A stretch of DNA of 34,074 bases. It comes from Actinophytocola xinjiangensis (lineage in GTDB: Bacteria; Actinomycetota; Actinomycetes; Mycobacteriales; Pseudonocardiaceae). Positions 12,627-34,074 of the stretch are shown piece after piece (positions within the stretch are counted from its first letter, which is position 1; each line of letters begins with the position of its first letter). Position numbers and translations under genes: made by a program. The notes below the pieces were generated by a model. That model had not been told where the DNA came from. It searched no databases and saw nothing but the letters and a program-made list of their open reading frames with translations. The stretch covers positions 1 through 34,074 of the forward strand of contig NZ_MSIF01000045.1 in assembly GCF_001921215.1 (NCBI RefSeq), written 5' to 3'.

Positions 12627-13819
12627 CAGCTCAGCGCCACCTCCGCCTTCTCGTAGCCCCACACCAGGTTCGACCGCAACCGGCGCACCTCACCGGCGAC
12701 GGCCGGCGCGCGGACGCGGGCGGTCAGCTCGGTGAACAGCACCCGCAACTCGGTGGTGGCGAGGGTCGCGCCGACACACCGGTGGTTGCCGTGGGCGAAG
12801 GTGAGGTGACGGTTGGGGGTGCGGCCGACGTCGAAGGTGTCCGGCGCGGCGAAGACCGTCTCGTCGCGGTTGGCCGAGGGCAGCCAGACCGCCACCCGCT
12901 CCCCGGCGCGCAGCGGCTGCCCGGCCAGCTCCACGTCGCGGGCGACGGTGCGCAGCGCGTGCATCGCGGGGCTGGTCCAGCGCAGGATCTCCGGGACGGC
13001 GGTGTCCAGCAGCGACGGGTCGGCGCGTAACCGCCGCCACTGGTCGGGGTTGTCGGCCAGCGCCAGCAGGCCGCCGACCGAGGCGTGCCGGGTGGTTTCG
13101 TTGCCGCCGGAGACCAGGCCGTCGCAGTTGAGCAGGATCTCCTCGTCGGACAGCGGCCGGCCGTCGACCTCGGCCATGGCCAGCGCGCTGATCATGTCCT
13201 CGGCCGGCCGCGCGCGGCGCCGCGCCAGCAGATCCTCGTAGTACAGCAGCAGATCCGTGTGCGCCTCGACCCGGCGGTCGGTCTCGTCGGGGTCGTGCGA
13301 GGTGGAGCCCCACGCGGTGCGGGTGCGGTCGAGCATGAAGTGCCAGTCCTCGCGGGGCACGCCGATCAGGTCGCACACCACCGACACCGGCAGCGCGGCG
13401 GCGATCTCGGTGAGGTCGCACACCGGCTCGGCCAGCGCCCGGTCGACCATGTCGCGGACGGTCACCCGCATGTTCTCCTCAAGGCGGCGCACCATCCTCG
13501 GCGTGAACGCCGACCCGATGACCCGGCGCACCGAGGTGTGCACCGGCGGGTCGGTGACGATCAGCATCCGGCGGGCGACGGCGGCCGCCACGGCCTCGGG
13601 GTTGGAGTCCAGCCGCATGCCCCTGCCGGACACGAACGTCCCCGGGTCGCGCAGGACCTCGGTCGCCACCCCGTGGCCCAGCGCCGCCCAGAACGGCCCG
13701 GTCTCGCCCAACTCGTTGCGGTACAACGGGTGCGCCGCGCGCAGTCGGGCCCATAACGGGGTCGGGTCGGTGTCGCGGTAGAGCGTGGGGTCGGACAGGT
13801 CGGTGAGCGTCGCGGTCAT
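12626..13819 (-). CDS. Cytochrome P450
   Basis: A soluble bacterial P450 of 397 residues. The I-helix oxygen-activation motif is GGNETT (238-243), the K-helix ExxR is EILR, and the haem loop reads FAHGNHRCVG with the axial thiolate at C348. The second residue of the loop is Ala where Gly is commoner. Its ATG overlaps the stop of the upstream NRPS gene by four bases (ATGA), and its own stop overlaps the PP2C gene. Such tight coupling suggests action on the peptide or on an aminoacyl group held by the NRPS carrier domains, as known for P450s that beta-hydroxylate carrier-bound amino acids. Whether it hydroxylates, cross-links or acts after release cannot be told from sequence. Ferredoxin and reductase genes are not nearby. 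Confidence 0.93.
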   Translation of the reverse strand: MTATLTDLSDPTLYRDTDPTPLWARLRAAHPLYRNELGETGPFWAALGHGVATEVLRDPGTFVSGRGMRLDSNPEAVAAAVARRMLIVTDPPVHTSVRRVIGSAFTPRMVRRLEENMRVTVRDMVDRALAEPVCDLTEIAAALPVSVVCDLIGVPREDWHFMLDRTRTAWGSTSHDPDETDRRVEAHTDLLLYYEDLLARRRARPAEDMISALAMAEVDGRPLSDEEILLNCDGLVSGGNETTRHASVGGLLALADNPDQWRRLRADPSLLDTAVPEILRWTSPAMHALRTVARDVELAGQPLRAGERVAVWLPSANRDETVFAAPDTFDVGRTPNRHLTFAHGNHRCVGATLATTELRVLFTELTARVRAPAVAGEVRRLRSNLVWGYEKAEVALS

Positions 13820-19800: not shown

Positions 19801-20178
19801 CGCGATCGCGTTTGTCCGCGCGCGGACAACTGTCTCTTTGTCCGGTTCGGGGACGTTCTCATAATCTTCTTCAGGTATTGAAACGACAATATCGGTGACG
19901 CGTTGTTCGGGAACGCCGGACACGTCGGGCAGCTGGGTGCGCAACGCGTCATGGCGGTCGACAATCGTTTGGAATGCGATTCTCAATGCCGCTTTGTCCA
20001 GTGTTCCACGTAGTCGCAGGGCGACCGGGATGGTGTACAGCGAACTGTCCGGCTGTAGTCGGTCGAGGAACCACATCTGCTGCTGGGCGGCCGACAGCGG
20101 CACCAGCGATGGTGCCGATGTGCCTGCTCTGACCTGCGACGACGGTGCTTCGGTGAGCAGTGACTCGCCTAGTTGCAT
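13816..20178 (-). CDS. Two-module NRPS (C-A-PCP-C-A-PCP)
   Basis: A 2120-residue synthetase. C1 has HHTVFDG at 157-163; A1 has YTSGSSGTPKC near 629 and YGTSETS; PCP1 carries its phosphopantetheine Ser at S1032 (GGSSL). C2 has HHIVTDG at 1222-1228; A2 has [11 protein letters not shown] near 1671; PCP2 has S2062 (GGHSL). Both C motifs are complete. There is no epimerase or thioesterase. By-eye specificity residues (positions 235 to 331) are D-I-A-E-L-A-A-I-D for A1, close to a bacitracin ornithine code (DVGEIGSIDK), and D-A-E-S-L-A-V-I-T for A2, loosely like a lysine code (DAESIGSVCK). A pair of basic residues is therefore plausible, the second with low confidence. The A1 nucleotide loop has Cys where Gly is usual (PKC). 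It is first in the minus-strand operon, and the P450 and PP2C genes follow with overlaps. Confidence 0.95.
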   Translation of the reverse strand: MQLGESLLTEAPSSQVRAGTSAPSLVPLSAAQQQMWFLDRLQPDSSLYTIPVALRLRGTLDKAALRIAFQTIVDRHDALRTQLPDVSGVPEQRVTDIVVSIPEEDYENVPEPDKETVVRARTNAIAHAPFELGRGPLFRLRLIRLGEFDHILIIVAHHTVFDGASLGILLRELNEFYSAARAGRPPAAPPPPASYADFARWQATADLDGQLAFWRGKLATVPPPLQLTTDRPRPPVQSYRGACARFAVPAEIAERVAALSERAGTTVFLTFLTAFHVLLARYTAQRDIAVGVPVFNRPTAALDELIGCFVNTVTIRADLPGGITFLDALEHVSAEALDAFEHLDVPFDDVVRAVVPDRDTSYSPLVQVSFGMVTEQVAGRPELAGLDVETLEVERVTAKFDLSLDLLSTGAGLTGEIEYNTDLFDEATVRRTAGHWLRLLTEVTADPDRPIADYPILTGAEWDQSVVGWNDTAADVPAPHLMHHLFEREARRVPDATAVVCGDSRISYRELDERANQLAHALVARGVGPEVSVGVCLERSIDTIVAFLGVLKSGGVFTPLDPDYPAERLAFMIADARAQLLVVDSGVAATLPLGDVPRIVLDAGRAELDRLPVTPPRTLVRPENLSCVFYTSGSSGTPKCAMLTHLNYANYVHFWETTYHVSQVMRVHLQMTSFAFDIFVADATRALFSGATLVIAPREVVMSPERLYALMLAERVNSAEFITPILAALVDHLERTGQDLAFMDLLVAGSDIWYARDYLRARRLCRPTTRIVAAYGTSETSIDNSTLVDTEVPDDAEGIVAVGRPALNTRLYVLNERMRPVPAGIAGELYIGGAGVGRGYLRRPGLTAQRYVPDPFAAEPNARLYRTGDLTRYRPDGVIEILGRVDNQVKVGGFRIELGEIEDALRQHPTIDRSVVLARETGSGDRRLVGYVTQHDPASPVTDDELRVHLQARLPGYMVPSVVVRLARMPLNANGKIDRRALPAPDAELFDATGHVAPRTPVEEILAGIWCEVLELATVGVHDNFFGLGGSSLMLTQVASRIRASLRVEVPLREIYGLPTIAELARRLATGVADTAGPPPITARPPAELAEPSYAQQRMWFLNQLAPDDPAYNSLTVLRLTGELVLPALARAIDTVLARHDVLRTVFAQVDGMPRLVVLDPVARDLAVTDLSALPEPRRGAELTRLVHQDERAPFDLATGPLLRTSVVRLAADDHVLLLNLHHIVTDGWSAAILFDELSAAYTAEVTGTSPDLPEVTLRYADFAAWQREWLRGEVLAEQLEYWRGQMAGAPAVLDLPLDRPRPAVSSHFGDSFVFPLPGRLTGRLRALCQAEGVTLFMALLGSFQATLARHTGQDDIVVGSPIANRTRVELERMPGFFANTLALRTDLSGDPSFRAVLHRVREVALDAYAHQDLPFEKLVEQLAPERSMGHHPLFQVLLVLQDTPQESADLPGLRLEWMPYDSSVSQFDLSVSIAVTEDGLEGTVWYKTELFDRSTVESVLTSWRLLLDRACAAPDTRLAALPVSPPSTVDVESLELPATARIDDLVAAQVARTPNAIAVEDGDTRLTYAELDAAATDLAGELRALGAGPDVLIGLVLPRSADAVTAILAVLRTGAAYVPVDPLYPEVRRATMLRATAAVITAGLRVTGGHDRVRPGPVARPGPDDAAYVCYTSGSTGTPKGVVVSHRSLVNHSLAVDRHFALTPGDRVLQCRSLSFDAAAEEIFPALTHGATLVIGREALERGAEEFTDLVLAHRLTVVSLPTAFWARWADTGDGLRALAGSGLRFVLAAGEQAHPGHLRAWKDHVGETVTWCNVYGPTEATITTSVYRAGQDWERDCALTVPIGTPIANVTAHVLDRHHRPVPDGVVGELHVGGAALARGYLDQPAATAARFVPDPFGTGGRLYRTGDLVRRAADGTLRFVGRDDGQVKVLGHRVEPGEVAAALAAHPSVRDAVVLHTDERLVGYVAATGVTAAALRAHLERTLPRHLVPSAFVVLDDLPLTPNGKVDRAALTASAARRVDEHVEPATPVEHVLSAIWCEVLDRTEVSATADFFEIGGHSLLAAKVLSRIRGVLSVALPVRALFDHRTLDALAAAITTALTPDQHERIAGLVAQESAR

Positions 20179-20581
20179 GCGTATCCACCCCGGGTTCGTC
20201 CGTTATGAATTCGTGCGTGTCCGCCGCCTTCGTCCAGTGGAAATGGCGCAGGCGTGATCGGTGATCTGCTGATCGAGTTCAGTGCTACGGAAGCGTTGAC
20301 CTTGGCGAAGGTATCGCTGGGAACGGAAGTATGATCACGTATTACTCCCCCCGGTGTCCCGGAGTCTCCTCAGGACACACCGAGGACGCTACCGGAGGGG
20401 GTGGAGGACCGTCAAGACAGGACCGGAGTAACTCGTTCGGGGGAGTTCGGCTCTCGTTCCCGTGAAATTCGGAAGATGGTTGAACGACGCCGTCGGCCGT
20501 GGTTATGGTGGGATCGCGGAGTCGCAATCTGACAGGGCGGGGCCCTTCGCGATCATCCCGGCGATCAATGTGCTTGGGGGC
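20179..20581. other. Divergent control region of the NRPS cluster
   Basis: 403 bases between the minus-strand NRPS and the plus-strand NRPS, less GC-rich than the genes. I see no gene. It contains three TGATC copies spaced 7 and 8 bases (starts 20255, 20262, 20270), a TATGAT -10-like element (20330-20335), a hairpin with arms GTGTCC (20354-20359) and GGACAC (20373-20378), and a plus-strand promoter candidate at 20480-20509. For the minus-strand NRPS only a weak CATAAC (20207-20202) was found. Both operons are probably controlled here, by a regulator not identified. Confidence 0.6.
20480..20509 (+). promoter_or_regulatory. Candidate promoter of the plus-strand NRPS operon
   Basis: TTGAAC (20480-20485) and TATGGT (20504-20509) are 18 bases apart. 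Transcription would start near 20516 and leave a leader of about 65 bases if translation begins at 20582. Each hexamer matches the consensus at four of six positions, so this is a reasonable but unproven call. Confidence 0.35.
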
Positions 20582-23500
20582 ATGTTGCATTTTTCTGCTG
20601 CCACGAGTATGTCCAGGTCCACCACGAGTGACCACCACGGCTGTGTCCACGAACTGGTCAACGCGCGCATCGGCCGCGCCACCGACGAGATCGCGTTTCG
20701 CGCCGGCGGGACCGATGTCGGCTACCGGGAACTCGGTGAGCGTGCCAACCGGCTGGCGCACCTGCTGCGCCGCCGGGGAGTGTCGACCGGCGACCGGGTC
20801 GGGGTGTGCCTGCACCGGGGCCCGGACCTGGTGGTCGCCCTGCTGGCCGTGCTCAACGCCGGCGGGTGCTACGTGCCGCTGGACCCCACCTACCCGCCGG
20901 ACCGGGTCGCGTTCATGGCCAAGGACTCCGGCGCGTCGCTGGTACTGACCGACACCGACGGGCACTTCGGCGGCGCGCAACCGGTACGGCTGGACGACCT
21001 GGACACCTCCGGCGAGCCGGTCCACCCGCCGCCGGTGCGGGTGTCGCCGCGCGACCTCGCGTACCTGATCTACACCTCCGGCTCCACCGGCCGCCCCAAG
21101 GGCGTGGCGATCGAGCACCGCTCGGCGGTGGCCAGGCTGCGCTGGGCCGGGGACACCTTCTCGGCGCGGGAGCTGGGCGGGATGCTGGCCTCGACGTCGG
21201 TCTGCTTCGACCTGTCGGTCTTCGAGATCTTCGCGCCGCTGGCCTGGGGCGGGCGGTTCGTGCTGGTCCGCGACGTGCTCGAACTGGCGACGCTGCCGCC
21301 CGGCGCGGGCGTGCGGCTGGTGAACACCGTGCCATCGGCGATGACCGAACTGCTGGCCGCCGACGCCGTCCCAGATGGCGTCGAGACCGTGTGCCTGGCG
21401 GGCGAGCCGGTCCCGCCGGCACTGGCCGAACGGCTGTGGCGCCGCCCGGGGATCGCCAGGGTGCTCAACCTGTACGGGCCGTCGGAGGACACCACGTACT
21501 CCACCGTCGCCGAGCTGACCAGGCACGACACCGGCCCGCCGCCGATCGGGCGGCCGTTGCCGGGCACCACCGCGCACGTCCTGGACGACGCGTGGCGCCC
21601 GGCCGGCACCGGCGAGCTGTACCTGGCCGGCGAGGGCCTGGCCCGGGGCTACTTCGCCTGGCCGGCCGAGACCGCCGCCCGTTTCCTGCCCGACCCGTTC
21701 GGCCGCCCCGGGACGCGGCTCTACCGCACCGGGGACCGGGTGCGCCGCCGCGCCGACGGCCGGCTGGAGTACCTGGGCCGTACCGACGACCAGGTCAAGA
21801 TCCGTGGCCACCGGGTGGAGCTGGGCGAGGTGGCCGCCGCGCTGGCGACCGTCGCCGGAGTCCACCACGCCAGCGCCAGGGCCGTACGCGGCCCGGCCGG
21901 CGACCTGCGCCTTGCCGGCTACGTCGTCGCCGACGGCACCCGGCCCGACACCGCGCGGGTCTTGGCCGACCTGCGGGAACGGGTGCCGGCGCCGCTCGTG
22001 CCGAGTACGCTGGTGTGGCTGGACCGGTTGCCGCGCACGCCCAACGGCAAGGTCGACCGCCGTGCCCTGCCCGACCCGGTGTGGGACCGCCCCAACGGCG
22101 GCGTGAACAGCGACACGGACACCGTCGCCGCGGTGTGGCAGGAGGTTCTCGGGGTCCGCCCGGAACCCGGCGACGACTTCTTCGCCTCGGGCGGCGACTC
22201 GCTGCTGGCCACCAGGGTCGTCGCCCGGCTGCGGGCGGCGCTGGGTGTGTCGCTGCCGCTGACCGCGCTGTTCGACCGGCCGACGGCCGCCGGCCTGAGC
22301 GCGCTGGTGCGGGCCGCGTCGGCCACGCGACCGCCGCCGGCGGTGTCCGCCGGGTCGCCGGTCTCCCACGCCCAGCAGCGCCTGTGGTTCCTCGACCAGC
22401 TGACCCCCGACGACCCGGCGTACCTGGTCAACGCGGTGATCTGGACCCGGTTCGCCGCCGACCCCGACCACCTGACCGGCGCGCTGCGCGACGTCGTCGC
22501 CCGGCACGACGCGCTGCGCACCAGCTTCGGTGAGAACGCCGAGGGCGACCTCACCCACCACGTGCACCCCGCCGTCGACGTCCCGGTCGAGCGGGTCGCG
22601 CTGGCCGCCGACGAGGACCCGCACCGCCTCGCCGCCCGGGCGCGGCCGCTGGACCTGACCACGGCGCCGCTGGCCCGGTTCCACCTGCTGACCAGGGACG
22701 GGCGGGTCGCCGGGGTCCTGCTGACCGTGCACCACATCGTCTTCGACACCTGGTCGCTCGACGTCCTGGTCGGCGACCTCGGCCGCTGCTACGACGCCCG
22801 CGCCCACGGCACCGCGCCGCCGCCGGCCACCGGCGACGCCCGGGGTTTCGGTGCCCGGCAACGAACCTGGCTGTCCGGTGTGGACGGGCAGGCGGCGCTG
22901 GCGCGGCTGGCCGGCTCGCTGCGCGGCGTGCCGGACACCCTGGACCTGCCGACCGACCGGCCGCGTCCGGCCGAACAGGGCTCGGCCGGCGCGCACCTGG
23001 TGGCGCCGGTCCCGGGCGCCGCCGCGTTGACCGACCACGCCCGCCGGCACGCCACCACCCGCTACCTGGTCGGGCTCACCGCGTTCGCCAGGCTGCTCAC
23101 CGAGTGGACCGGCCGCCGCGACCTGGTCGTCGGCACCGCGTTCGCCGGGCGCACCAGCGCCGAGACCCAGGACGCCGTCGGGTGCTTCGTCAACCTCGTC
23201 CCGCTGGTCATCCGCACCCCACCGGAGCGGGCCGGCCTGGCCGCCGAGGTCCGCCGGGCCGCGCTGTTCGCCGCCGGCCACCAGGACGTCCCGTTCGAGT
23301 GTGTCGTGGAACGCGTGCGCCCGCCCCGCCGGCTGGACCGCCCACCGCTGGTCCAGGTCGCGTTCGGGGTGCACACCGCGACCCGGTCGGGCTACCGGGG
23401 CGAGCCCGCCCGGCTGTGGGGCCAGGAGCTGGAGCCGGCGCACGCGCGGCTGGACCTGACGCTGTGGCTGCGGGAGCGGCCCGACGGCCTGGACGCCCTG

Positions 23501-23608
23501 TGGACCTACCGCACCGCACTGTTCGTGCCGGCCACGATCGCCGCGCTGCACGAGCGGTACACCGCCCTGCTCGCCGAACTGACCGAGCCAGCAGCGAAGG
23601 AGTCGTGA
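20582..23608 (+). CDS. NRPS module A-PCP-C, predicted alanine starter
   Basis: About 1008 residues. It begins directly with an adenylation domain (about 20-520; A3 YTSGSTGRPKG near 163, A10 PNGKVDRRAL), so it can start a chain. A PCP follows with S540 (GGDSL), then a condensation domain (about 595-1000). Specificity residues read D-L-F-N-C-A-L-T-Y, near the known Ala code DLFNNALTYK. The C domain has HHIVFDT (717-723): the catalytic second His and the Asp are kept, but the final Gly is Thr. The start is uncertain: ATG 20582 has a G-run only one base away, ATG 20609 has no ribosome site, and GTG 20570 and GTG 20462 are also in frame. The end overlaps the next gene (TGATG). The C-terminal C domain probably joins Ala to the residue carried by the synthetase at 25626. 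Confidence 0.92.
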   Translation: MLHFSAATSMSRSTTSDHHGCVHELVNARIGRATDEIAFRAGGTDVGYRELGERANRLAHLLRRRGVSTGDRVGVCLHRGPDLVVALLAVLNAGGCYVPLDPTYPPDRVAFMAKDSGASLVLTDTDGHFGGAQPVRLDDLDTSGEPVHPPPVRVSPRDLAYLIYTSGSTGRPKGVAIEHRSAVARLRWAGDTFSARELGGMLASTSVCFDLSVFEIFAPLAWGGRFVLVRDVLELATLPPGAGVRLVNTVPSAMTELLAADAVPDGVETVCLAGEPVPPALAERLWRRPGIARVLNLYGPSEDTTYSTVAELTRHDTGPPPIGRPLPGTTAHVLDDAWRPAGTGELYLAGEGLARGYFAWPAETAARFLPDPFGRPGTRLYRTGDRVRRRADGRLEYLGRTDDQVKIRGHRVELGEVAAALATVAGVHHASARAVRGPAGDLRLAGYVVADGTRPDTARVLADLRERVPAPLVPSTLVWLDRLPRTPNGKVDRRALPDPVWDRPNGGVNSDTDTVAAVWQEVLGVRPEPGDDFFASGGDSLLATRVVARLRAALGVSLPLTALFDRPTAAGLSALVRAASATRPPPAVSAGSPVSHAQQRLWFLDQLTPDDPAYLVNAVIWTRFAADPDHLTGALRDVVARHDALRTSFGENAEGDLTHHVHPAVDVPVERVALAADEDPHRLAARARPLDLTTAPLARFHLLTRDGRVAGVLLTVHHIVFDTWSLDVLVGDLGRCYDARAHGTAPPPATGDARGFGARQRTWLSGVDGQAALARLAGSLRGVPDTLDLPTDRPRPAEQGSAGAHLVAPVPGAAALTDHARRHATTRYLVGLTAFARLLTEWTGRRDLVVGTAFAGRTSAETQDAVGCFVNLVPLVIRTPPERAGLAAEVRRAALFAAGHQDVPFECVVERVRPPRRLDRPPLVQVAFGVHTATRSGYRGEPARLWGQELEPAHARLDLTLWLRERPDGLDALWTYRTALFVPATIAALHERYTALLAELTEPAAKES

Positions 23609-24615
23609 TGGCGCAGCCGTTGATCCGCCGCCGGGAGGCCGACCGCACCGGGGTCCTCGTCCAGCGGGACTGGCAGGACCGGACGCTGCCCGCGCTGGTC
23701 CGCGCGCAGACCCCCGGTCTGGACGCCGCGGCGTGGGTGCGGGCCAACCGGGACACCGTCGACCGGCTCAGCCGCACCGCCGGGGCGGTGCTGCTGCGGG
23801 ACTTCGCGGTCGCCGGCGCCGACGCCTTTCGCGAGGTGATGGCGGCGCTGTCCGACGACGTCCTTGGCTACGGCGAGCGGTCCTCGCCGAGGACCGAGGT
23901 GCGCTCCGGGGTGTACACCTCCACCGAGCACCCGCCCGACCAGCCGATCGTGTTGCACAACGAGCAGTCCTACACCCTCGACTGGCCACTGCGGATCGTG
24001 TTCTTCTGCGACGTCGCGCCGGCCGAGGGCGGGCGCACCCCGCTGGCCGACAGCCGGGCGGTGCTCGCCAGGCTGTCTCCGGCGGTGGTGGACCGGTTCG
24101 AACGCCACGGTGTGCGCTACGTGCGCAACTACCTGCCGGGCATCAGCCTGCCGTGGCGTGAGGCGTTCCAGACCGACTCCCGCGAGGAGGTCGAACGCTA
24201 CTGCCGCGCCACCGGCATCCACTGCGAGTGGCTCGGCGAGGACCAGCTGCGCACCCACCAGGTGCGTCCGGCGGTGCACCGCCACCCGCACACCGGCGAG
24301 CGGACCTGGTTCAACCACGCGCTGTTCTTCCACGTGACGTCGCTGCCGCCGGAGGTCAGCGCCGGGCTGCTGGCCGCGCTCGACGAGCGCGACCTGCCCT
24401 ACCAGACCTACTACGGCGACGGCCGGTCCATCGAGGACGACGTGGTCGACGAACTACGCGCCGCCTACGAGGCGCAGACCGTGGCGTTCGACTGGAAGCG
24501 GGGCGACGTGCTGGTGGTGGAGAACATGATCGTGGCCCACGCCAGGGAACCGTTCCGGGGGCCCCGGCGCATCCTGGCCGCGATGGCCGACCCGCGTTCG
24601 GCGGTGACGGCGTGA
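23608..24615 (+). CDS. SyrP/KtzO-like Fe(II)/2-oxoglutarate aminoacyl beta-hydroxylase (first copy)
   Basis: A 335-residue TauD-fold oxygenase. The iron ligands are H117 and E119 (LHNEQSY) and H311 (VAHAREPF); the Arg pair after it (PRRI) can bind 2-oxoglutarate. Family landmarks are SSPRTEV, VYTSTEHPPD, GGRTPLADSRAVL, HGVRYVRNY, TWFNHALFFH and YYGDG. They match SyrP and kutzneride KtzO/KtzP, which beta-hydroxylate Asp or Glu while it is bound to a carrier protein. One difference is HAR at the distal His, where the second copy has HGR. ATG 23608 shares a base with the NRPS stop and has a GAAGGAG ribosome site. It lies directly before a second hydroxylase and a synthetase whose A domain reads as Glu-selective, so beta-hydroxyglutamate is the likely product. 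Stereochemistry cannot be read from sequence. Confidence 0.9.
   Translation: MAQPLIRRREADRTGVLVQRDWQDRTLPALVRAQTPGLDAAAWVRANRDTVDRLSRTAGAVLLRDFAVAGADAFREVMAALSDDVLGYGERSSPRTEVRSGVYTSTEHPPDQPIVLHNEQSYTLDWPLRIVFFCDVAPAEGGRTPLADSRAVLARLSPAVVDRFERHGVRYVRNYLPGISLPWREAFQTDSREEVERYCRATGIHCEWLGEDQLRTHQVRPAVHRHPHTGERTWFNHALFFHVTSLPPEVSAGLLAALDERDLPYQTYYGDGRSIEDDVVDELRAAYEAQTVAFDWKRGDVLVVENMIVAHAREPFRGPRRILAAMADPRSAVTA
24095..24132. repeat. 38-bp near-identical repeat shared with 25105-25142
   Basis: The stretch coding for RFERHGVRYVRNY in the first hydroxylase recurs at 25105-25142 in the second with two mismatches, exactly 1010 bases apart in the same orientation. It marks the tandem duplication and could be a site of recombination that would fuse the two genes. 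Confidence 0.8.
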
Positions 24616-25625
24616 GCGCCCCGGCCGGACCGCGTCGGCGCCGCGCGAGCGCCCCGGCCGAGCTGACCCGCCGGAGTTTCCTGACCGACGAGCCGTTCGG
24701 GCTGTGCGTCGAGGCGACGATGCCGGGGCTGGACCTGCGGGTGTGGCTGACCGAGTCGCGGGCCGGGATCCGCGCGGACCTCGACCGCTACGGCGCGGTC
24801 CTGTTCCGGGGGTTCGCCGTCGACGGCGCCGCCGGCTTCGGTGACTGTGCCAGGGCGATCGACCCGGAGCTGCTGGGCTACCTGGAGCGCGCCGCGCCCC
24901 GGACCGAGGTGGCGGACAAGGTGTTCACCTCCACCGAGTTCACCTCCGACGAGTGGATCCCGCTGCACCACGAGATGTCCTACTCGCACAACTGGCCCAG
25001 CCTGCTGTACTTCTACTGCGACCTGGCCGCCGAGTCCGGCGGCGGCACCCCGCTGGCCAGCGAGCGCGAGGTGTTCCCGCTGATCCCGGCGCAGATCCGG
25101 GAACGGTTCGAGCGCCACGGCGTGCGCTACGTGCGCAACTACGGCCCCGACCTGGACCTGCCGTGGCAGGTGGTGTTCCAGACCGGTGACCGGGCCGAGG
25201 TGGAGGCCTACTGCCGGGACTCGGGCACCGAGTTCGTCTGGACCGGCGCGGACGGCCTGCGCACCACGGCCGTGCGCCAGGCCGTCGCCACGCACCCGAG
25301 GACCGGCGAGACCGTGTGGTTCAACCACGCGCACCTGTTCCACGTGTCCACCACGCCGCCGGAGGTCCGCGCCGCGCTGGTCGCCGAGTTCGGGCTGGAC
25401 GGCCTGCCGCGCAACGCCTTCTACGGCGACGGCCAGCCGATCGAGGACGAGGTCGTCGGCCTGGTCGGCGACACCTACCGCGCCGCCGCGCGCTCGTTCC
25501 CGTGGCGCGCGGGCGACGTGCTCGTGGTCGACAACTTCCTGGCCACCCACGGCCGCGAGCCGTTCACCGGCGCGCGCCGGGTGCTGGTCGCGATGTCGGA
25601 CCTCTACGTGAATCGAGGCTGCTGA
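24612..25625 (+). CDS. SyrP/KtzP-like Fe(II)/2-oxoglutarate aminoacyl beta-hydroxylase (second copy)
   Basis: A 337-residue paralogue of the preceding gene. The first about 17 residues are an Arg/Ala/Pro-rich tail, then the same fold follows. Iron ligands are H119 and E121 (LHHEMSY) and H313 (ATHGREPF), with ARRVLVAM supplying the 2-oxoglutarate Arg. Shared landmarks are AAPRTEV, VFTSTEFTSD, GGGTPLASEREVF, HGVRYVRNYG, VWFNHAHLFHV and FYGDGQPIEDE. GTG 24612 overlaps the previous stop (GTGA), and its own stop is followed at once by the GTG of the next synthetase, so the three are made together. As with KtzO and KtzP, the two copies may give opposite hydroxyl stereochemistry or act on different carrier domains; alternatively one may be inactive or redundant. 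Confidence 0.9.
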   Translation: MSAPAGPRRRRASAPAELTRRSFLTDEPFGLCVEATMPGLDLRVWLTESRAGIRADLDRYGAVLFRGFAVDGAAGFGDCARAIDPELLGYLERAAPRTEVADKVFTSTEFTSDEWIPLHHEMSYSHNWPSLLYFYCDLAAESGGGTPLASEREVFPLIPAQIRERFERHGVRYVRNYGPDLDLPWQVVFQTGDRAEVEAYCRDSGTEFVWTGADGLRTTAVRQAVATHPRTGETVWFNHAHLFHVSTTPPEVRAALVAEFGLDGLPRNAFYGDGQPIEDEVVGLVGDTYRAAARSFPWRAGDVLVVDNFLATHGREPFTGARRVLVAMSDLYVNRGC

Positions 25626-28600
25626 GTGAGGACGTTCGAGGGGTACCGGCTCTCCCCGGTCCAGCGCGCGGTGTGGAACGCCGGCCGGGGCGGGGTGCTG
25701 CGCGCGCGGGTCACCGTCGAGGGGGTCGACCGGCAGCGGCTGGCCTACGCGCTGCGCGTGGTGACCGCCCGGCACGAGGCGCTGCGCCTGCGGATCGCCG
25801 AGCACCCGGGGCTGCGGGTGCCGGCGCAGGCGCCGCGTGAGGAGGTGTCGGTGTTCGTCGCCGACCACGACGCCTCCGCCCACCAGGTCGAGCCGCTGCG
25901 GCTCACGCTGTCCGGCTCGACGCTGCTGCTCACCGCGTTGCCGACCGCGCTGGACCAGGCCAGTCTGGGGATCCTGCTGGGTGAGCTGGCCACGGTCTAC
26001 GCCGGCGGCCGGCTGCCCGACGACCCGGAGCGCACCCAGTTCCTCGACGTGTCCGAGTGGCTGGCCGAGAACTTCGCCGACGAGCGCCCACCCGCCCCGG
26101 CGGGCCCGGTGGTGCGCGCGGTCGACGTGGCCCCGCTGCCCGGCTCCGACCCCGGTCCCCGCACGGTCGCCGACGCCACCGAGACCGAGGTGTTCGCCGC
26201 GTGGGCGCTGGCCGTGGCCCGGCACGCCGAGGGCACCGGCACCCTGGCGCTGGCCCGCTACGAGCCGGGCCGGGGCGTGGAGGGCACCGGCGAGGTCGTC
26301 GGCCCGCTCGGCGCGTTCGTCGAGGTGGCGGTGCCACTACCGCTGCCACTGCCGCTGCCGGCGACCCGCGAGGACCTGGTGGCGGCCGTGACCCCGGATC
26401 CCGGGCCCGGCGTGGTGATCCACCCGCTGGAGCGGCCGGACGTGGCCGCCGGGTTCGCCATGACCACCCTGCCCGACCTGGCCGGGCTGGCCGCGTTCGG
26501 CGCGACCGAGGTCGACGTCGACCCGCCGGAGCTGCCCGGGGTGCCGATGCTGACGGCGGTGCGTGCCGGTGACCGGCTCACGCTGTCGGTGAGCGGACCG
26601 GCCGGTCCCCGCCTGCTGGACACCGTGTGCGCGATCCTCGACGCGCTGCGCGCCGGTGGGTCCCCGGTGGTGCTGGGGCGGGCCGAGACCGAGCGGCTCG
26701 TCGAGTTCGCCGGGACCCGCGCGGGCACCCCGGGAGTGCTGGTCGACCTGCTCGACAGCGGGATCGCCGCCGATCCTGGCGCCGAGGCGGTGGTCGCGCC
26801 GGACGGCACGCTGACCTTCGCCGAGCTGGACGCGGCGGCGACCGACCTGGCGAACCGACTGGTCGAGGCCGGTGCCGGCGCGGAGGATCCGGTGCTGGTG
26901 GTGGCGGCGCGGTCCTGGCGCACGGTGGCCGCGTTCGTCGGGGTGCTGCGCGCCGGGGCGGTGTACGTGCCGGTCGACCCGGCCGAGCCGCCCGCGCGGC
27001 GCGACCGGCTCGCCGGGCTGGTCGGCGCGCGGCTGACGGTCGGCGGGGACGGCCCGCTGGAGGTCCGGCGGGTGGCCGACGCCGTCCCGGGACCCCGGCC
27101 GGTGATCACCGGGGAGCGGGCCGCCTACGTCATGTTCACCTCCGGGTCCACCGGCACGCCGCGTCCGGTCGTGGTGGAGCACGCGGCGGCGGCGAACCTG
27201 TACCACGGGCTGGCCGGCACGGTGTACGACCGGCCACGCCTGCGGATCGGGCTCAACGCGCCGTTCACCTTCGACTCGTCGGTCAAGCAGCTCGTCCAGC
27301 TGGCCGGCGGGCACACGCTGTGCCTGCTGGGCGAGGAGCTGCGCCGCGACCCGCCCGCGCTGCTCGACCACCTGGCCGCGCACCGGGTCGACGTCCTGGA
27401 CTGCACGCCGACGCACCTGCGCGCGATCCTCGACGACCGGGCCGGCCGGGTACTGCCCCCGACCCTGCTGCTCGGCGGTGAGGCGCTCGACCCGGCGCTG
27501 TGGGACGAGCTGGCGGCACTGGACGTGCGGGCGGTCAACCTCTACGGCCCCACCGAGTCCACTGTGGACGTCACGGTCGCGGTCGTCACCGCCGGCACCC
27601 GGCCCACCATCGGCCGTCCGCTGCCGGGGGTGCGGACCTGGGTGTGCGACGAGCGTCTCGCGCCGGTGCCGCTGGGCGTCGCCGGGGAGCTGTGCGTGAG
27701 CGGGGCGCAGCTGGCCAGGGGCTACCTCGGCGACCAGACGGCCACCGCCGCCCGGTTCGTCACCGTCACCCTGCCCGACGGCACCCGCGACCGCGTCTAC
27801 CGCACCGGCGACCTGGTGCGCCACCGGCCCGACGGCGACCTGGAGTTCCTCGGCCGCACCGACGACCAGGTCAAGGTCAACGGACGCCGCGTCGAGCCGG
27901 GGGAGATCGAGGTGACGCTGACCGGTCACCCGGCGATCACCCGCGCGGCCGTGGTGCACGACGGCACCGCGCTGCGCGCCTACGCCGTCCCCGGCCGGGG
28001 CATCGGCCTGGACCTGGACCGGGTCGAGGGCCTCAACCCGCACGAGACCCGATACCTGCACGAGGAGATCTTCGTGCGGCAGGCCTACCTGCGCGGCGGG
28101 ATCACCCTGCCCGAGGACGCCGTGGTGTTCGACGTCGGCGCCAACATCGGCATGTTCTCGCTGTTCGCCCACGCGGTCTGCCCGACCGTGCGGCTGCACG
28201 CGTTCGAGCCGCTGACCGAGGCGTGCGCGGCACTGCGGGCCAACCTCGCCAACCACGGGGTGGCGGCGCGGGTGTACCCCTACGGCCTGGGTGCGGCCGA
28301 GGGGGTGGAGGCGTTCACCTACTACCCCGGCTACTCGATGATGTCCGGCCTGGCCGGCTACGCCGACGCGGCCGCCGAGATCGGTGTGGTGAAACGGTTC
28401 CTGGCCAACGAACGGTCCCAGGAGCTGTTGGCCAACGCCGACGAGCTGCTGGCCGACCGGTTCCGTGGCGTCGAGCGGACCGTGCGGCTGCGCCGGCTGG
28501 GCGACGTGCTCGACGAGACCGGTGTCGACCGGGTCGACCTGCTCAAGGTCGACGTGCAGCGCGCCGAGGTGGACGTGCTGCGCGGGTTGGCCGACCGGCA

Positions 28601-30794
28601 CTGGCCGATGATCCGCCAGGTCACCCTGGAGGTGCACGACGCGCCGGGCACGGCCACCGCCGGGCGGGTCGCCGAGGTCGTCGACCTGTTGGAACACCAC
28701 GGTTTCCGGGTCGTGGCCGAGCAGGAGGAGGCGCTGGTCGGCACCGACCGGCACACCGTGCACGCCGTCCGTCCCGCCGCCGTGCGCCCCGCCGTGCCCG
28801 CGCGGCCGGCGCCGGTCGGCGTCGACGGCGAGACCCTGCGCGGCTGGCTGGCCGAGCGGCTGCCCGAGCACCTCGTCCCGGCGACCGTGACCGTCGTCGC
28901 GGCGTTGCCGCTGACCGCCAACGGCAAGCTGGACCGGGCGGCGCTGCCTGCCCCGGCCACCGCCTCGACCGTCGCCGAACCGGACGGGCCGGTGGAGGCG
29001 ATTCTGCTTGAGGTGTGGCAGGAAGTGTTGGGGCGCCAGGACTTCGGTGTGGAGGACGTGTTCTTCCGGTTCGGCGGTGACTCGATCCGTGGCATCCGGG
29101 TCCGGGCCGCCGCGCAGCGCCGGGGCGTCACGTTCCCGCTGCGGCACGTCTTCAAGTACCCGACGATCCGCCAGCTCGCCACCGAGGGCGGCGCCACGCT
29201 GGCCGGCGCTGAGCCCGCCGCCCCGGCCGAGGCGTTCCGGCTGCTGCACGCCGAGGACCGCGCCGCCCTGGGCCCCGACATCGAGGACGCCTACCCGATC
29301 TCGGCCCTGCAACTGGGGATGCTCTACCACAGCGAGCTGACCAGCGACCGGGGTACGTACCACGTGGTGACCGTGCACGGCGTCCACGGCCGGCTCGACG
29401 CCGACGCGCTGCGTGCCGCACTGGACCGGACGGTCGCGGCGAACCCGGTGCTGCGCACCGGGTTCGACCTCGGGCACTACCGCGAGCCGTTGCAGCTGGT
29501 GCACCGGGACGTGCGGGTGCCGTTCACCGCCGAGGACCTGCGCTCGGCCGACGAGCGGCAGCGGGTGCGGCGGCTGGCCGAGGTCGTCGCCGAGGAACGC
29601 GCGCTGCCCTTCGCCTGGGCCCGACCGCCGCTGCTGCGGCTGCGCGCGCTGTGGACCGCCGACGACGAGTTCACCCTGGTGGTCACCAACTACCACGGCG
29701 TGATCGACGGCTGGAGCCTGCACCTGTTCCTTGAGGAGCTGCTGACCAGGTACGACGACCCGGACGCGGTGGTGGCGCCGGCCCAGCCCTACCACCGGTT
29801 CGTCGAGCTGGAACGGCAGGCGCGCGAGAGCGAGGAGTCGCTGGCGTTCTGGCGCGCGACGCTGGGTGGGGTGGCGCCACTGCACCTGGCCAGCGGACGC
29901 GGCCACGACCAGGCCGCTGTCCCGCACATCGACACCCTGCACGTCGAACCGCTGCCCCCGGGCGTCGGCGCCCGCCTGGCCGAGGTCGCCGACCGGCACG
30001 ACGTGCCGGTGAAGTCGCTGCTGCTGGCCGTGCACCTGCGGGCACTGGGCGAGGCGACCCGCCGCGACGAGGTGGTCACCGGGCTGGTGGTCAGCGGGCG
30101 CGCCGGCGAGCACGGCGACGACCGCACGATCGGCCTGTTCCTCAACACCGTCCCGGTGCGTGCCCGCCTGAGCACCCGCTCGCCGGCCGACCTGGCCGCC
30201 GGCCTGTGGCGCGCGGAACGGGACCTGATGGGCCACCACGTCGTGCCGCTGCCGGACATCGAACGCGCCGTCCACTCCGGACCGCTGTTCGACGTGTTCG
30301 TCAACTACACCCGGTTCCACCGGCTCGGTGAGCGGCCCGGCGGGACCAGGGTGCTGACCAACGACCTGGGCGGCCCGGTGGACGTGGCGTTCAGCCTCGC
30401 CGTCGACTTCGAGGTCGACGCGGCGACCGGCGAGCCCCGGCTGAGCCTGCAGTACGACGGCCGGCGGCTGTCCGCGCACCGGATCGGTGCGCTGGCCGCC
30501 CGCTACCGCGAACTGGTCGTGGCGACCGTCGACGCGCCGGACGCGGCGCTGCCGCCGGTGAGCACCGACACCGACCCGGTGGCCAGGGCCGCCGAGGTGT
30601 GGCGGGAGCTGACCGGCGTCGCGCCGACCGACGACACCGGGTTCTTCCAGGTCGGCGGGACCTCGCTGCTGGCGCTGCGGCTGGTGTCGGTACTGCGCGA
30701 CCGGCACGGCATCGCCGTGGGCCTCGACGAGTTCAACCGGGACGGCACGTTCGGCGCCATCCGGCGGCTCGCGCTGGAAGGCGGTGCGTCCTGA
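25626..30794 (+). CDS. NRPS: degenerate C - A(methyltransferase) - PCP - C-like - PCP, predicted Glu module
   Basis: 1722 residues. Residues 1-345 resemble a C domain (LSPVQRAVW) but the HHxxxDG site reads LPTALDQ (105-111), so it cannot condense. The A domain (about 375-1110; A3 [11 protein letters not shown] near 504) is interrupted after A8 ([20 protein letters not shown]) by an FkbM-type methyltransferase, about 790-1055, with SAM motif [11 protein letters not shown] (835-845) and [11 protein letters not shown] (972 on); it resumes to A10 ([10 protein letters not shown]1101). PCP1 has S1153 (GGDSI). A second C-like domain carries NYHGVIDG (Y1356 replaces the first His, H1357 kept). A final PCP has S1680 (GGTSL) but no A domain of its own. 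Specificity residues D-S-K-D-L-G-L-V-D match the Glu code DAKDLGVVDK. GTG 25626 abuts the hydroxylase stop. No thioesterase. Prediction: Glu, hydroxylated in trans and O-methylated in cis. Confidence 0.92.
26333..26360 (+). repeat. CCRCTG hexanucleotide run coding a Pro-Leu tract
   Basis: Consecutive CCACTA/CCGCTG/CCACTG units inside the degenerate C domain of the synthetase encode alternating Pro-Leu ([14 protein letters not shown]). Such a run can gain or lose units in frame by slippage. It lies between two halves of the domain and probably forms a surface linker. Confidence 0.75.
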
Positions 30795-30802
30795 ACGGAC
30801 AG

Positions 30803-31681
30803 TCAGCCCGCCGGCGAGACCGTGGTCCGCGCGACCAGCGTCGTGCCGTCGTCGGACAGGTCGAGCGTGACGGCCACCGCGCCCAGCCGGCCGGTGCTGG
30901 TCACGTGCGTGCCGCCGCAGGCGACCCTGACCTCGCCCTGGCCGAGCGCGCAGCACCACGAGCGGCGGTCGGTCAGGCCGGGTTCGGGCGCGTCGACCCA
31001 CACCCGGGCGTCCTCGGCGACCCAGCCGGTCAGCCGCGCGGTGACCGCCGCGGCGGCCTCCGGCAACGCGGCGGCCAGCCCGTCGGTGCCGAAACCCTTC
31101 TTGCGCAACGACTTCCCGAGCCGGTAGGTGTCCACACTGCCGCCGGGGACGATCGCCGAGGTGGTGATCGCCTGGCCGTCGAAGTCGGGGTTGCCGAGCA
31201 CGTCCACCGGCACCTCCTTGCGCCAGCGGCCGGCGAACGCCTCGTTGATCGCCAGCGTGACCAGTTCGCAGCCGGTGTGCCCGGCCGAGAGCGCGGCCCG
31301 GCGCCGCCCGTCGACCACCAGGTCGGCCCCGGCGCCGTCGCGGTGCGGGAACGGGCCGTCGACCAGGTGCACCACCAGCCAGTGCCAGCCCGCCGCGCCG
31401 CGCCGCACGGGGATGTCCCGGCCGAGCAGCACGGTGTCCGTGCCGTCCTCGACGGCGCCGATGACGCAGTCCACGATCTCGTGGCGGCGCCCGTCGACGG
31501 TGACGGTGCCGTGGTCGGCCGGGTGGTCGGGCCAGGTGTGGTCCACCGGGTGGAACGGCGTCACGTCGGTGACGACGCCGGTGCGCGTGCCGGCCGGGAA
31601 GGCGGCGACGACCGTCGAGGACCCCCGTGACGTGCCGTCGGGGAAGGTCACGGTGGTGCCGCGCTCGATGTCCTGGATCAC
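30803..31681 (-). CDS. AlaX-like alanyl-tRNA editing / metal-dependent hydrolase
   Basis: A 292-residue protein related to the editing domain of alanyl-tRNA synthetase. It has an N-terminal beta-barrel-like part (about 1-110, VTDVTPFHPVDHTWPDHP), then the metal-binding half: HTGCE (H135, E139), where HxxxH is usual, and CGGTHV (C255, H259), the conserved CxxxH. AlaX proteins hydrolyse Ser or Gly wrongly attached to tRNA-Ala. Here it sits inside the NRPS cluster, antisense, with its stop 8 bases from that of one synthetase and its start 36 bases from the next. Possible roles are protection against mischarging by an unusual amino acid made for the peptide, or hydrolysis of an ester intermediate; neither is shown. 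The start is GTG 31681, with ACAAT about 8 bases upstream suggesting a leaderless message. Confidence 0.8.
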   Translation of the reverse strand: MIQDIERGTTVTFPDGTSRGSSTVVAAFPAGTRTGVVTDVTPFHPVDHTWPDHPADHGTVTVDGRRHEIVDCVIGAVEDGTDTVLLGRDIPVRRGAAGWHWLVVHLVDGPFPHRDGAGADLVVDGRRRAALSAGHTGCELVTLAINEAFAGRWRKEVPVDVLGNPDFDGQAITTSAIVPGGSVDTYRLGKSLRKKGFGTDGLAAALPEAAAAVTARLTGWVAEDARVWVDAPEPGLTDRRSWCCALGQGEVRVACGGTHVTSTGRLGAVAVTLDLSDDGTTLVARTTVSPAG

Positions 31682-31717
31682 GCCGGAATTGTGCCAGAGG
31701 GCTGGGGGTGTGTTGGT

Positions 31718-34074
31718 ATGACGGGGATGCCGTCACCGGTTCGGGAACCGGTGGCCGACGCGGTCGCTGACCTGGTCGGTGACCGGTTCACCGCCCAGGT
31801 GGCCGCGCGCCCGGACGCGGTGGCCCTGGTGCACGACGGCCGGTCGCTGACCTACCGGGAGCTGCACGCGGCCGCGTCGGCGGTCGCCGGTGGCCTGGCG
31901 GCGCTGGGCGTCGGCCGGGAGACCGTCGTCGGTGTCGCGTATGGACGGTCGGTCGAGTCGGTGGTGGCGACCCTGGGCGTGGTGCTCGCCGGCGGTGCCT
32001 ACGTGCCGGTCAACCCGCAGTACCCGCCCCGGCGGATCGCCCAGGTGGTCGCGCTGTCCGGCGCGCGGGTGGTGATCGCCGCGCCGTCGACCAGGGCCGC
32101 CGTGGCCGGCGCCGTCGGCGGCGGGGTGATCGTGCTCGGGGTCGCCGACCTCGACGGGCCGGCGCCGGCGACCCCGCCGGTGTGCGCCGACCGCTCGCCG
32201 CTGTGCTGTGTCATGTACACCTCCGGCAGCACCGGCCGGCCCAAGGGCGTGATGATCGAGCACCGGGGCGTGCTGCGCCTGGTGACCGGCCAGGACTACC
32301 TCGACTTCGGCCGCCACCACACGTTCCTGCACGCCGCCGCGCCGGAGTTCGACGCCGCGCTGTTCGAGGTGTGGGGCGCGCTGCTGCACGGCGCCACCCT
32401 GTGCGTGGCCGACCAGGAGACCGCCGTCGTGCCGTGGCGCTACGCGCGGGCGTTGCGGGACAACGGGATCAGCGTCGCGTGGCTGACCGCGCCGCTGTTC
32501 GCGCGGATGGCCGACGAGGACCCCGGCATGTTCGCCGGGTTGCGGGTGCTGCTCACCGGCGGCGACGTCGTCTCGCCCCGGCACGTCGCGGCGGTCGCCC
32601 GGCACTGCCCGGACCTGCTGGTGTGCAACGGGTACGGCCCGACCGAGAACACCACGTTCACCTCGGTGTACCCGGTGCCGCGCGGCCACACCGGTCCGCT
32701 GCCCGTCGGCCGGCCGATCGCCGGCACCACCGTGCTGGTCCGCGACGAGCGGGGCGCCCCGGTGCGGCCGGGGACCACCGGCGAACTGCTCGTCGGCGGC
32801 GCGGGCCTGGCCAGGGGCTACCTGGGCCAGCCGGCGCTGACCCGGGACCGGTTCGTGTACGTCGATGGCCGGCGCTACTACCGCACCGGCGACCGCGTGC
32901 ACCAGGACTCCGGTGGCGTGCTGCACTTCCACGGCCGCTGGGACGACCAGGTGAAGGTCAACGGCAACCTGGTGGAGCTCAAGGAGATCGTCGCCGCGCT
33001 GCGCGGGCTGCCGGGGGTGCGTGACGCGTTCTGCCGGGTGGCCGGCGCGCCGGGTCGGGACCGGTACGTCGCCGCCTACGCGGTCGCCCCCGGCCACACC
33101 GGCCGCGCGCTGCGGGCCGCGCTCGCCGCCGCCCTGCCCGGCTACCTGGTGCCGGCCTCGGTCGTCGTGCTGGACCGGTTCCCGTTGCTGGACAACGGAA
33201 AGGTCGACGCCGCGGCGCTGCCAGAGCCGGTCGCCGCCCCGGCCGCCCCGCTCACCGACCGGCACCGGGTGCTGGCGCGGCTGTGGGCCGAGGTGCTGGA
33301 CGTGCCGGCCACCGCGATCGGACCGGACTCCGACTTCGCCGAACTCGGCGGCAACTCGCTGCGCCTGGGCGTGCTGCTGGGCCGGATCCACCGGGAGACC
33401 GGCGTGCGGGTCCCGCTGCGCACGGCCGCCGCCGCCCGCACGCTCGACCAGCTGGCCGGCGCGGTCGCGCGGGGCCGGACCGCGCCGCCGCCGGCCATCC
33501 CGGCCGTGTCCGGCGCGGCCGACCTGCATCCCCAGCAGCGCGGCCTGTACGCCATCTGGCACGCCGACCCGTCCTCACTGGCCTACAACGTCCCGGTCCG
33601 GATCGGCCTGCCGGCCGGGGTGGACCGCGACCGGCTGCGCTCGGCGTTCCTTTCGACCGTGGCCCGGCACGACGCGTTGCGGATGCGGTTCGAGGTGAGC
33701 GGCGGCGTGGTGCGCCAGCGCCCGGTGACCGGTGTCGAGCCGGAGTTCGGTGTGGACGGTCCGGTCGCCGCGTTCGTGCGGCCGTTCGACCCGGCCGAGC
33801 CGGTGCTGCCCCGCGCGCTGCTCACCGCCGGCGCGCTGTACCTCGACGTGCACCACGTCGTGTTCGACGGCGTCTCCCTTGACGTGGTCGTGCGCGACCT
33901 GTTCGGCCGCCAGGACGGCCCGGCACCGCGCTACGCCGACGCCGCCCAGTGGTGCCACGACCAGGGCGTACGCGCCGAGGACGTGCGCTACTGGCGGCGC
34001 CGGCTGGCCGGCGCGCCCCCGCTGGCCCTGCCGACCGACCGCCCGCGGCCGGCCTTCTCCAGCCGCCGCCGCGC
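31718..34074 (+). CDS. NRPS, A-PCP-C..., predicted valine module, cut by the window edge
   Basis: The frame is open from ATG 31718 to the last base, 785 codons without a stop. It starts directly with an adenylation domain (about 15-510; A3 YTSGSTGRPKG near 167, A10 LDNGKVDAAAL), followed by a PCP with S547 (GGNSL) and a condensation domain starting about 600 with intact HHVVFDG (712-718); the C domain is cut off after LPTDRPRPAF. Specificity residues read D-A-F-W-L-G-G-T-F, nearly the known Val code DAFWIGGTFK. A GGGGG ribosome site (31704-31708) lies 9 bases before the ATG; ATG 31727 is an alternative. Like the synthetase at 20582 it lacks an N-terminal C domain, so Val must be joined by a C domain on another protein or start a chain. 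Further modules and any thioesterase must lie to the right. Confidence 0.93.
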   Translation, partial: MTGMPSPVREPVADAVADLVGDRFTAQVAARPDAVALVHDGRSLTYRELHAAASAVAGGLAALGVGRETVVGVAYGRSVESVVATLGVVLAGGAYVPVNPQYPPRRIAQVVALSGARVVIAAPSTRAAVAGAVGGGVIVLGVADLDGPAPATPPVCADRSPLCCVMYTSGSTGRPKGVMIEHRGVLRLVTGQDYLDFGRHHTFLHAAAPEFDAALFEVWGALLHGATLCVADQETAVVPWRYARALRDNGISVAWLTAPLFARMADEDPGMFAGLRVLLTGGDVVSPRHVAAVARHCPDLLVCNGYGPTENTTFTSVYPVPRGHTGPLPVGRPIAGTTVLVRDERGAPVRPGTTGELLVGGAGLARGYLGQPALTRDRFVYVDGRRYYRTGDRVHQDSGGVLHFHGRWDDQVKVNGNLVELKEIVAALRGLPGVRDAFCRVAGAPGRDRYVAAYAVAPGHTGRALRAALAAALPGYLVPASVVVLDRFPLLDNGKVDAAALPEPVAAPAAPLTDRHRVLARLWAEVLDVPATAIGPDSDFAELGGNSLRLGVLLGRIHRETGVRVPLRTAAAARTLDQLAGAVARGRTAPPPAIPAVSGAADLHPQQRGLYAIWHADPSSLAYNVPVRIGLPAGVDRDRLRSAFLSTVARHDALRMRFEVSGGVVRQRPVTGVEPEFGVDGPVAAFVRPFDPAEPVLPRALLTAGALYLDVHHVVFDGVSLDVVVRDLFGRQDGPAPRYADAAQWCHDQGVRAEDVRYWRRRLAGAPPLALPTDRPRPAFSSRRR

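Follow-up and report, generated by a model that had tools for sequence, protein, structure and literature searches.

The closest described counterpart of the locus reported here is the amb system of Pseudomonas aeruginosa, which makes the antimetabolite methoxyvinylglycine (AMB) from glutamate. In the accessible parts of its description, AmbB, a nonribosomal peptide synthetase (NRPS) with adenylation (A), carrier (T) and condensation (C) domains in the order A-T-C, loads Ala, and the first carrier, T1, of AmbE loads Glu; AmbE consists of an N-terminal stretch, A, a methyltransferase (MT), T1, C, T2 and a thioesterase (TE), AmbC and AmbD are Fe/alpha-ketoglutarate oxygenases, and AmbB, AmbC, AmbD and AmbE together build an Ala-AMB-Ala tripeptide on T2 (PMC4357302). 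The accessible portions of two further papers describe hydroxylation of Glu at C3 and C4 by AmbC/AmbD, methylation of the 4-OH by the MT, dehydration by the AmbE C domain, and a decarboxylation that yields Ala-AMB rather than the tripeptide (PMC10880069, PMC8968710). We analysed a stretch of 34,074 nucleotides from the actinomycete Actinophytocola xinjiangensis (contig NZ_MSIF01000045.1, positions 1 to 34,074; hereafter the window) and consider it probable that one of its synthetases, nrpsC, is the AmbE-type enzyme of an amb-type cassette leading toward an AMB residue. AMB biosynthesis in vitro is reportedly the subject of work by Patteson from 2018.

The core of the locus comprises four genes on one strand, nrpsB, TauD1, TauD2 and nrpsC, with neighbours overlapping or abutting. 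They and the domains of nrpsC are as follows.

20462..23608, + strand: nrpsB, AmbB-like A-T-C synthetase, A-domain code DLFNCALTY (Pfam A, T and C; aligned code)
23608..24615, + strand: TauD1, Fe(II)/alpha-ketoglutarate oxygenase, AmbC/AmbD-like (PF02668, E 2.5e-46)
24612..25625, + strand: TauD2, second Fe(II)/alpha-ketoglutarate oxygenase, start codon picked by eye (PF02668, E 9.4e-43)
25626..30794, + strand: nrpsC, AmbE-like C*-A(Glu)-[FkbM]-T1-C2-T2 synthetase without TE, 1722 residues (Pfam; relatives' alignment)
25626..26675, + strand: C*, N-terminal condensation-like domain of nrpsC (PF00668, E 5.6e-6, below cut-off; structure model)
26766..27935, + strand: A domain core of nrpsC, code DSKDLGLVD, Glu (PF00501; aligned code)
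27846..27911, + strand: A8 motif of nrpsC, residues 741-762 (sequence)
28032..28775, + strand: FkbM methyltransferase insertion of nrpsC, A8-A9; Pfam domain at residues 836-1029, 28131-28712 (PF05050, TIGR01444, tree)
28860..28934, + strand: A9 (LPEHLVP, residues 1079-1085) and A10 (residues 1094-1103, 28905-28934) of nrpsC (sequence)
29004..29183, + strand: T1 carrier domain of nrpsC, residues 1127-1186 (PF00550)
29283..30548, + strand: C2 of nrpsC, AmbE-C2-like, probably a dehydrating condensation domain (7r9x match, E 3.8e-63; residue comparison)
30561..30791, + strand: T2 carrier, final domain of nrpsC (second PF00550 stretch; matches relatives' T2)

Above the Pfam cut-offs, nrpsC contains an A domain, an FkbM methyltransferase, two carriers and one condensation domain. 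The insert matches PF05050 (E 1.5e-16; 61.4 bits against a cut-off of 22.7) and TIGR01444 (101.9 bits against 37.7), and these matches, together with the motifs and the code, bear out the first-pass annotation, made from the sequence alone, of an FkbM-type methyltransferase built into a Glu-coded A domain; the alignment returned the same nine specificity residues. That annotation had the A domain split after A8, which holds, and resuming at A10, which needs correction, as it resumes at A9 (LPEHLVP, which we take to be this motif by name); the insertion occupies A8-A9, the usual site in interrupted A domains, and A9 and A10 are retained. It was also right to couple hydroxylase genes to the synthetase, two TauD-family genes overlapping or abutting nrpsC, and to favour oxygen, which is the likely methyl acceptor; by sequence the insert is FkbM-type and not an N-methyltransferase. 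Beyond it, we observe a degenerate N-terminal domain, C2, T2, an A-T-C partner and the absence of a TE.

The structure model finds its best fold match in the interrupted A domain of TioS (5wmm), whose architecture nrpsC shares, and the insertion could on that basis be taken for a TioS-like backbone N-methyltransferase. We regard this as extremely improbable and rejected it on sequence family: the insert is FkbM, a search of PDB sequences with it gave no match at E up to 0.01, TioS included, and the fold match could be due to nothing more than the A domain and the common insertion site. A kutzneride-like reading, with KtzO/KtzP as hydroxylases and KtzH as methylating enzyme, was dropped once the A-T-C gene, C2 and the codes proved to fit AmbB-E; KtzH likewise has its MT between A8 and A9 and O-methylates a side chain, but it acts on Ser in the accessible part of its description (PMC11355689), whereas the window code stands for Glu. 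Elsewhere in the source genome there is one other PF05050 match only (L002), in a protein that is glycosyltransferase-like by eye and was rejected as an NRPS.

The second condensation domain was compared with that of AmbE. Its best PDB match is AmbE C2 (7r9x, E 3.8e-63), ahead of McyA and ordinary C domains. P. aeruginosa AmbE was compared through this solved C2 alone, with AmbE numbering anchored on HHxxxDG at 1496, after which the other published residue letters fit. In the accessible part of the mutational work, changing AmbE H1497, R1605, D1726, D1734 or Q1747 to Ala led to loss of product (PMC10880069). The window C2 keeps all five, as H, K, D, D and Q, with Lys in place of Arg at 1605, where Lys is described, in the accessible text, as the commoner residue of the AmbE-type C-domain class (PMC11342130). 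In a separate alignment, the C domain of nrpsB and both C domains of the neighbouring synthetase nrpsA lack this set, except that each has the general catalytic His and that D1734 is present in nrpsA C1. All 11 of the relatives' C2 domains compared keep H1497, D1726 and Q1747 and have Lys or Arg at 1605; nine keep D1734, and the remaining two, from Streptomyces, have His there. This residue comparison favours, short of proof, a dehydrating role for C2.

As in the AmbB-AmbE system, the window has an A-T-C partner, with a code that we read as Ala-like, two TauD-family oxygenases (PF02668 in both), and a Glu A domain with an MT followed by T1-C2-T2 and preceded by an N-terminal domain that is likewise unassigned in AmbE. 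The C part of nrpsB matches the T-C portion of AmbB (7x0e) at E 4.2e-52, with many ordinary NRPS chains scoring higher over the whole protein. A locus of Pseudomonas sp. (L133) bridges the window and the AMB pathway: it encodes a LysE protein, an A-T-C synthetase, two TauD proteins and an A(Glu)-FkbM-T-C2-T2 synthetase with a terminal TE, its C2 matches AmbE C2 (7r9x) with 543.7 bits, its T-C matches AmbB (7x0e) with 494.6 bits, and the alignment puts its FkbM-type MT after A8 and before A9/A10, the position it has in the window. The first-pass annotation was aware of no such pairing in a characterised interrupted A domain; the pairing of a Glu A domain with an MT is in fact already characterised in P. 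aeruginosa AmbE, as the accessible parts of its literature report (PMC4357302, PMC10880069), and L133 has the same FkbM insertion.

By analogy with AmbB-E, for which the AMB chemistry is published, the A domain of nrpsC would activate L-Glu and load T1, and the two TauD-family oxygenases, probably docked on C*, would place hydroxyl groups on C3 and C4 of the T1-bound Glu. The embedded FkbM domain would then O-methylate the 4-OH of the carrier-bound 3,4-dihydroxy-Glu, which is its most likely reaction. The C domain of nrpsB would add Ala, C2 would dehydrate the residue toward AMB, and loss of the side-chain carboxylate would give the 4-methoxyvinylglycine (AMB) residue. With no TE in nrpsC, the chain would either go to further synthetase modules or be released by a thioesterase in trans.

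Relatives of the cassette were collected in two ways. A search of 200 Pseudonocardiaceae genomes gave MT matches at E up to 1e-8 in 54, the source genome included. Of 38 places opened, eight have the MT beside A8 and/or A10 (five beside both), and only one of the eight, in G127, carries a Glu code, the others being Ser, Thr or Asx, with the code of L064 unreadable. G127 has counterparts of nrpsB, TauD1, TauD2 and nrpsC in the same order, with 56, 69, 68 and 49% identity, the same nrpsB code as the window and the nrpsC code DAKDLGLVD. A scan of GTDB with six related MTs returned at least 584 stretches, 337 of which encode relatives; the best 80 of these 337, selected by similarity to the window MT, were used as named loci. 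A Glu-coded interrupted A domain occurs in 36 of the 80 (L094 assigned by hand, its frame being broken), with the code D(A/S)KD(L/V)G(L/V)V(D/N) in 33 and DTKDLGLVD in three. A contig of Kutzneria viridogrisea, of the same family group as the host, is among the relatives (G019, L108).

A tree of the MTs was built from 100 rows: the window, 23 of the 38 family places and 76 of the 80 named loci, with 15 weaker family rows and four duplicates omitted. It was made by a quick method with midpoint root and no bootstrap, and KtzH was not among the rows. It splits at a branch with a support of 100 (Shimodaira-Hasegawa-like approximate likelihood ratio test, SH-aLRT) into 55 and 45 rows. The larger side, clade I, holds 35 Glu-coded insertions and 20 free-standing or other actinobacterial MTs; across that branch from the window MT fall the Ser-, Thr- and Asx-coded insertions (17), three Glu-coded insertions from Xanthobacter and 25 others. 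Those Xanthobacter loci (L154, L161, L164) have DTKDLGLVD interrupted A domains, lack a TauD gene in the 10 kb before them, and appear from their sequences to be a second, separate Glu-FkbM pairing.

Among the clade-I Glu-coded cases with at least 9.8 kb of upstream DNA, a TauD gene lies upstream in 28 of 28, and two or more in 27 (the pair of L127 and the single gene of L128 were confirmed by Pfam). In 17 of these loci the upstream DNA also encodes an Ala-coded A domain (DLFNCALTY; DLYNNALTY in L133); in 11, the three Streptomyces included, it does not. These counts omit L122, L135, L136, L138 and L140, with short upstream DNA, and the three Xanthobacter loci. By comparison, the best 80 include 11 cases with a Ser, Thr or Asx code, and a TauD gene was found in one of these, with 4.6-10 kb upstream available. 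A TauD pair followed by a C*-A-FkbM protein also occurs in Micromonospora, Streptomyces, Bradyrhizobium and Myxococcota loci, and the gene arrangement is not due to chance, since it recurs across these several taxa; in Pseudomonas loci the TauD pair is followed by an A-FkbM protein without a C* match.

The recurrent oxygenase pair bears on the product. The first-pass annotation expected beta-methoxy-Glu or a Glu methyl ester as the final residue, which is now unlikely, the reconstituted AMB pathway methylating the 4-OH and then dehydrating and decarboxylating. Beta-methoxy-Glu would arise if a single hydroxylation were followed by methylation and the residue were kept, as with the beta-methoxy-Asn of cystobactamid, in which CysJ reportedly hydroxylates Asn on its carrier and CysQ then adds the O-methyl group (PMC7966384). 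Both systems share SyrP-like hydroxylation with subsequent O-methylation of an amino acid on a carrier, and three free-standing clade-I MTs (L116, L121, L130) directly adjoin a TauD gene. The cystobactamid system uses Asn, one hydroxylase and an MT in the separate gene cysQ (PMC7966384). We hold a beta-methoxy-Glu outcome to be improbable, because 27 of the 28 relatives retain at least two oxygenases and C2 has the majority of the residues that AmbE reportedly requires.

Several observations weigh against the amb-type assignment. The A3 motif of nrpsC reads TPRPV instead of TPKGV. The identity between the window C2 and the AmbE C2 chain is about 41% (167 of 411 aligned positions), and AmbE H1496, D1728, H1632, R1679 and R1680 correspond to Y, A, S, H and V in the window. 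In the accessible text, mutation of H1632 lowered AmbE activity, every C domain of the AmbE class has at least one of R1679 and R1680, and altering either of them had no significant effect (PMC11342130). Among the 11 relatives, H1632 is kept in L133 only; at least one Arg of the pair is present in five (L092, L097, L110, L113, L133) and none in six. Four Myxococcota loci (L115, L125, L129, L134) carry the A-MT cassette but no C2, so that AMB does not follow from the presence of the MT; in Myxococcus L115, nrpsC stops after T1 and the A-T-C partner has a DIP2-like A domain, presumably fatty-acyl-AMP-ligase-like, and the A-MT cassette is therefore used in more than one setting. Unlike AmbE, nrpsC ends at T2 with no TE, and none of the 34 TE matches of the genome lies on the window contig. 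The same holds for the five LysE matches, on a contig that ends at 34074, 3.3 kb past nrpsC, and no AzlC gene is present on it. Unlike the amb cluster, the contig thus lacks a LysE exporter (AmbA) but has nrpsA, nrpsD and a P450 gene, and the host is an actinomycete.

The replacement of H1496, H1632, R1679 and R1680 and the four cassettes without C2 would also suit a pathway in which 3-hydroxy-4-methoxy-Glu is formed, C2 merely condenses and the peptide retains the intact modified Glu. We consider this unlikely, though less so than beta-methoxy-Glu, given that the five residues reported as needed are kept (R1605 as Lys) and that AmbE C2 outranks McyA and ordinary C domains among the PDB matches.

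The genes flanking the amb-type cassette are listed here.

12626..13819, - strand: cytochrome P450 gene, overlaps the end of nrpsA (PF00067, E 2.8e-26)
13816..20178, - strand: nrpsA, C-A-T-C-A-T synthetase (Pfam)
30803..31681, - strand: AlaX-like gene between nrpsC and nrpsD (tRNA_SAD domain, below Pfam cut-off)
31691..34072, + strand: nrpsD, A-T-C synthetase, code DAFWLGGTF, truncated by the contig end (Pfam)

The nrpsD code is one we read as Val-like. Micromonospora pattaloongensis, Streptomyces fuscichromogenes and Streptomyces sp. DvalAA-43 each have, next to the TauD-pair/nrpsC core, relatives of nrpsA (49-53%) and of nrpsD (50, 53 and 58% over the A-T part, the best three matches in ten genomes searched). 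The two Streptomyces have no Ala-coded A domain upstream. No T2 was found in their nrpsC, and the nrpsA relative comes after it on the same strand, as is also the case in M. pattaloongensis; this would fit chain transfer over TE release. The window nrpsA is divergent.

Alternatively, as a sub-case of the amb-type assignment, the cluster might make plain AMB or Ala-AMB with a thioesterase encoded elsewhere. G127, in which genes for a stand-alone thioesterase and an AzlC-type transporter follow the cassette as a minimal amb-like set, speaks for this; the nrpsA and nrpsD relatives that accompany the core in three other actinomycetes, and the window contig, which has neither a TE nor an AzlC gene, speak against it, and we judge it less likely than not. 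Of similar, also less than even, probability is that a TE-less actinomycete amb-type line puts the methoxyvinylglycine (enol ether) residue inside a longer nonribosomal peptide, with a His-less C* docking two successive oxygenases.

The C* domain itself, residues 1-379 of nrpsC, matches the condensation family PF00668 at E 5.6e-6, under the cut-off, and has LPTALDQ (residues 105-111) in place of HHxxxDG; in the alignment either catalytic His is found in none of 23 sequences and the Asp in all 23. A structure model from these 23 aligned sequences (predicted local distance difference test score 82.8, predicted template modelling score 0.84) had 763 hits in the PDB with E values of up to 10, of which the best 50 are, by title, condensation-superfamily proteins or NRPS chains containing them. 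The teicoplanin X-domain ranks third alone and twelfth with the oxygenase OxyB, no closer than ordinary C domains. By analogy, C* is perhaps a docking site for the oxygenases. An interface-domain precedent is reportedly found in work by Reitz from 2019, cited in PMC7100376, and a literature search found no paper combining the interface-domain terms. For AmbE, the accessible sections report no known domain in the N-terminal 461 residues (PMC4357302) and name this region Q, of unknown function (PMC10880069). The window C* has no match in 10 of the 36 Glu-type named relatives, L133 included, several sequences being cut short there, so that its tie to the Pseudomonas AmbE N-terminus is positional only.

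In the tree, free-standing MTs nest among the Glu-type insertions, and one free-standing group has a relic of the A-domain C-terminal subdomain ahead of the MT. A profile of the subdomain region matched all 12 rows of this group, 11 of them distinct, with E values from 5e-10 to 0.008, the five weakest near noise; 2 of 1050 shuffled controls matched at E up to 0.01, and 1 of 11 other free-standing clade-I loci did (L104, E 5.8e-6). The members are the following.

L107:9794-10936, L035, L036, L111, L114, L117, L120, L126, L131, L132, L139: relic-bearing free-standing FkbM MTs

This nesting and the retained relic suggest that the embedded MT has been excised to a free-standing form. L107 lies near ketosynthase genes (PF08541/PF08545, PF00109).

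Further observations concern the surroundings of the locus and more distant relatives. A 53% relative of the AlaX-like gene lies about 13 kb beyond nrpsC in M. pattaloongensis, and the AlaX-like protein (30803-31681) might serve in self-protection or editing. At 274-1941 of the window, about 18 kb from nrpsB, is a class I lysyl-tRNA synthetase gene (PF01921, E 8.2e-100), for which a housekeeping or a resistance role is conceivable. The remainder of the cluster was sought through the SbnB-like gene of M. pattaloongensis; this gave three places on other contigs, the best two deep inside long contigs with no evident continuation, and was set aside. BLAST with M. pattaloongensis proteins pointed to another cluster in the source genome (G000:C2:160001-180000, L184) with SbnB-like, SbnA-like and TauD-like genes and NRPS domains. 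In L102 and L103 the nrpsC relative has a C-terminal tail of 461 residues past T2 that resembles, by eye, a stand-alone protein encoded in the S. fuscichromogenes cluster; neither the L102 tail nor that protein matched a Pfam family at E up to 0.001. An FkbM domain ahead of A3, in the A2-A3 rather than the A8-A9 position, occurs at L045:2376-3128. On a plasmid of Candidatus Burkholderia crenata (L167:10001-10720), a Thr-coded A domain carries an FkbM insertion and is a candidate for part of the synthetase of FR900359, a compound with O-methyl-threonine. With the whole nrpsC protein as query, five plasmid records out of 72,556 matched at E up to 1e-100 (35-37% identity), none covering 80% of the query.

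What seems new is the lack of a TE in the protein, the extra NRPS genes with the core in three other actinomycetes, the His-less C* and the free-standing MTs with A-domain relics. The literature search, with most subscription journals outside its coverage, found no occurrence of AMB together with Micromonospora, none of 'methoxyglutam' in the 11 papers listed and, judged by titles, no paper tying AmbE to FkbM, so the actinobacterial variant is only provisionally new. A catalogue of interrupted A domains, reportedly by Lundy in 2020, may list FkbM-type insertions.

With the beta-methoxy-Glu guess replaced by a defined chemistry, the amb-type assignment predicts a residue known to inhibit enzymes dependent on pyridoxal phosphate (PLP), possibly masked in a longer peptide. 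C* offers a candidate identity for the N-terminal domain of AmbE-type synthetases. Since the core is found in records of four phyla, Actinomycetota, Pseudomonadota, Myxococcota and Acidobacteriota, AMB-type chemistry may extend well beyond P. aeruginosa.

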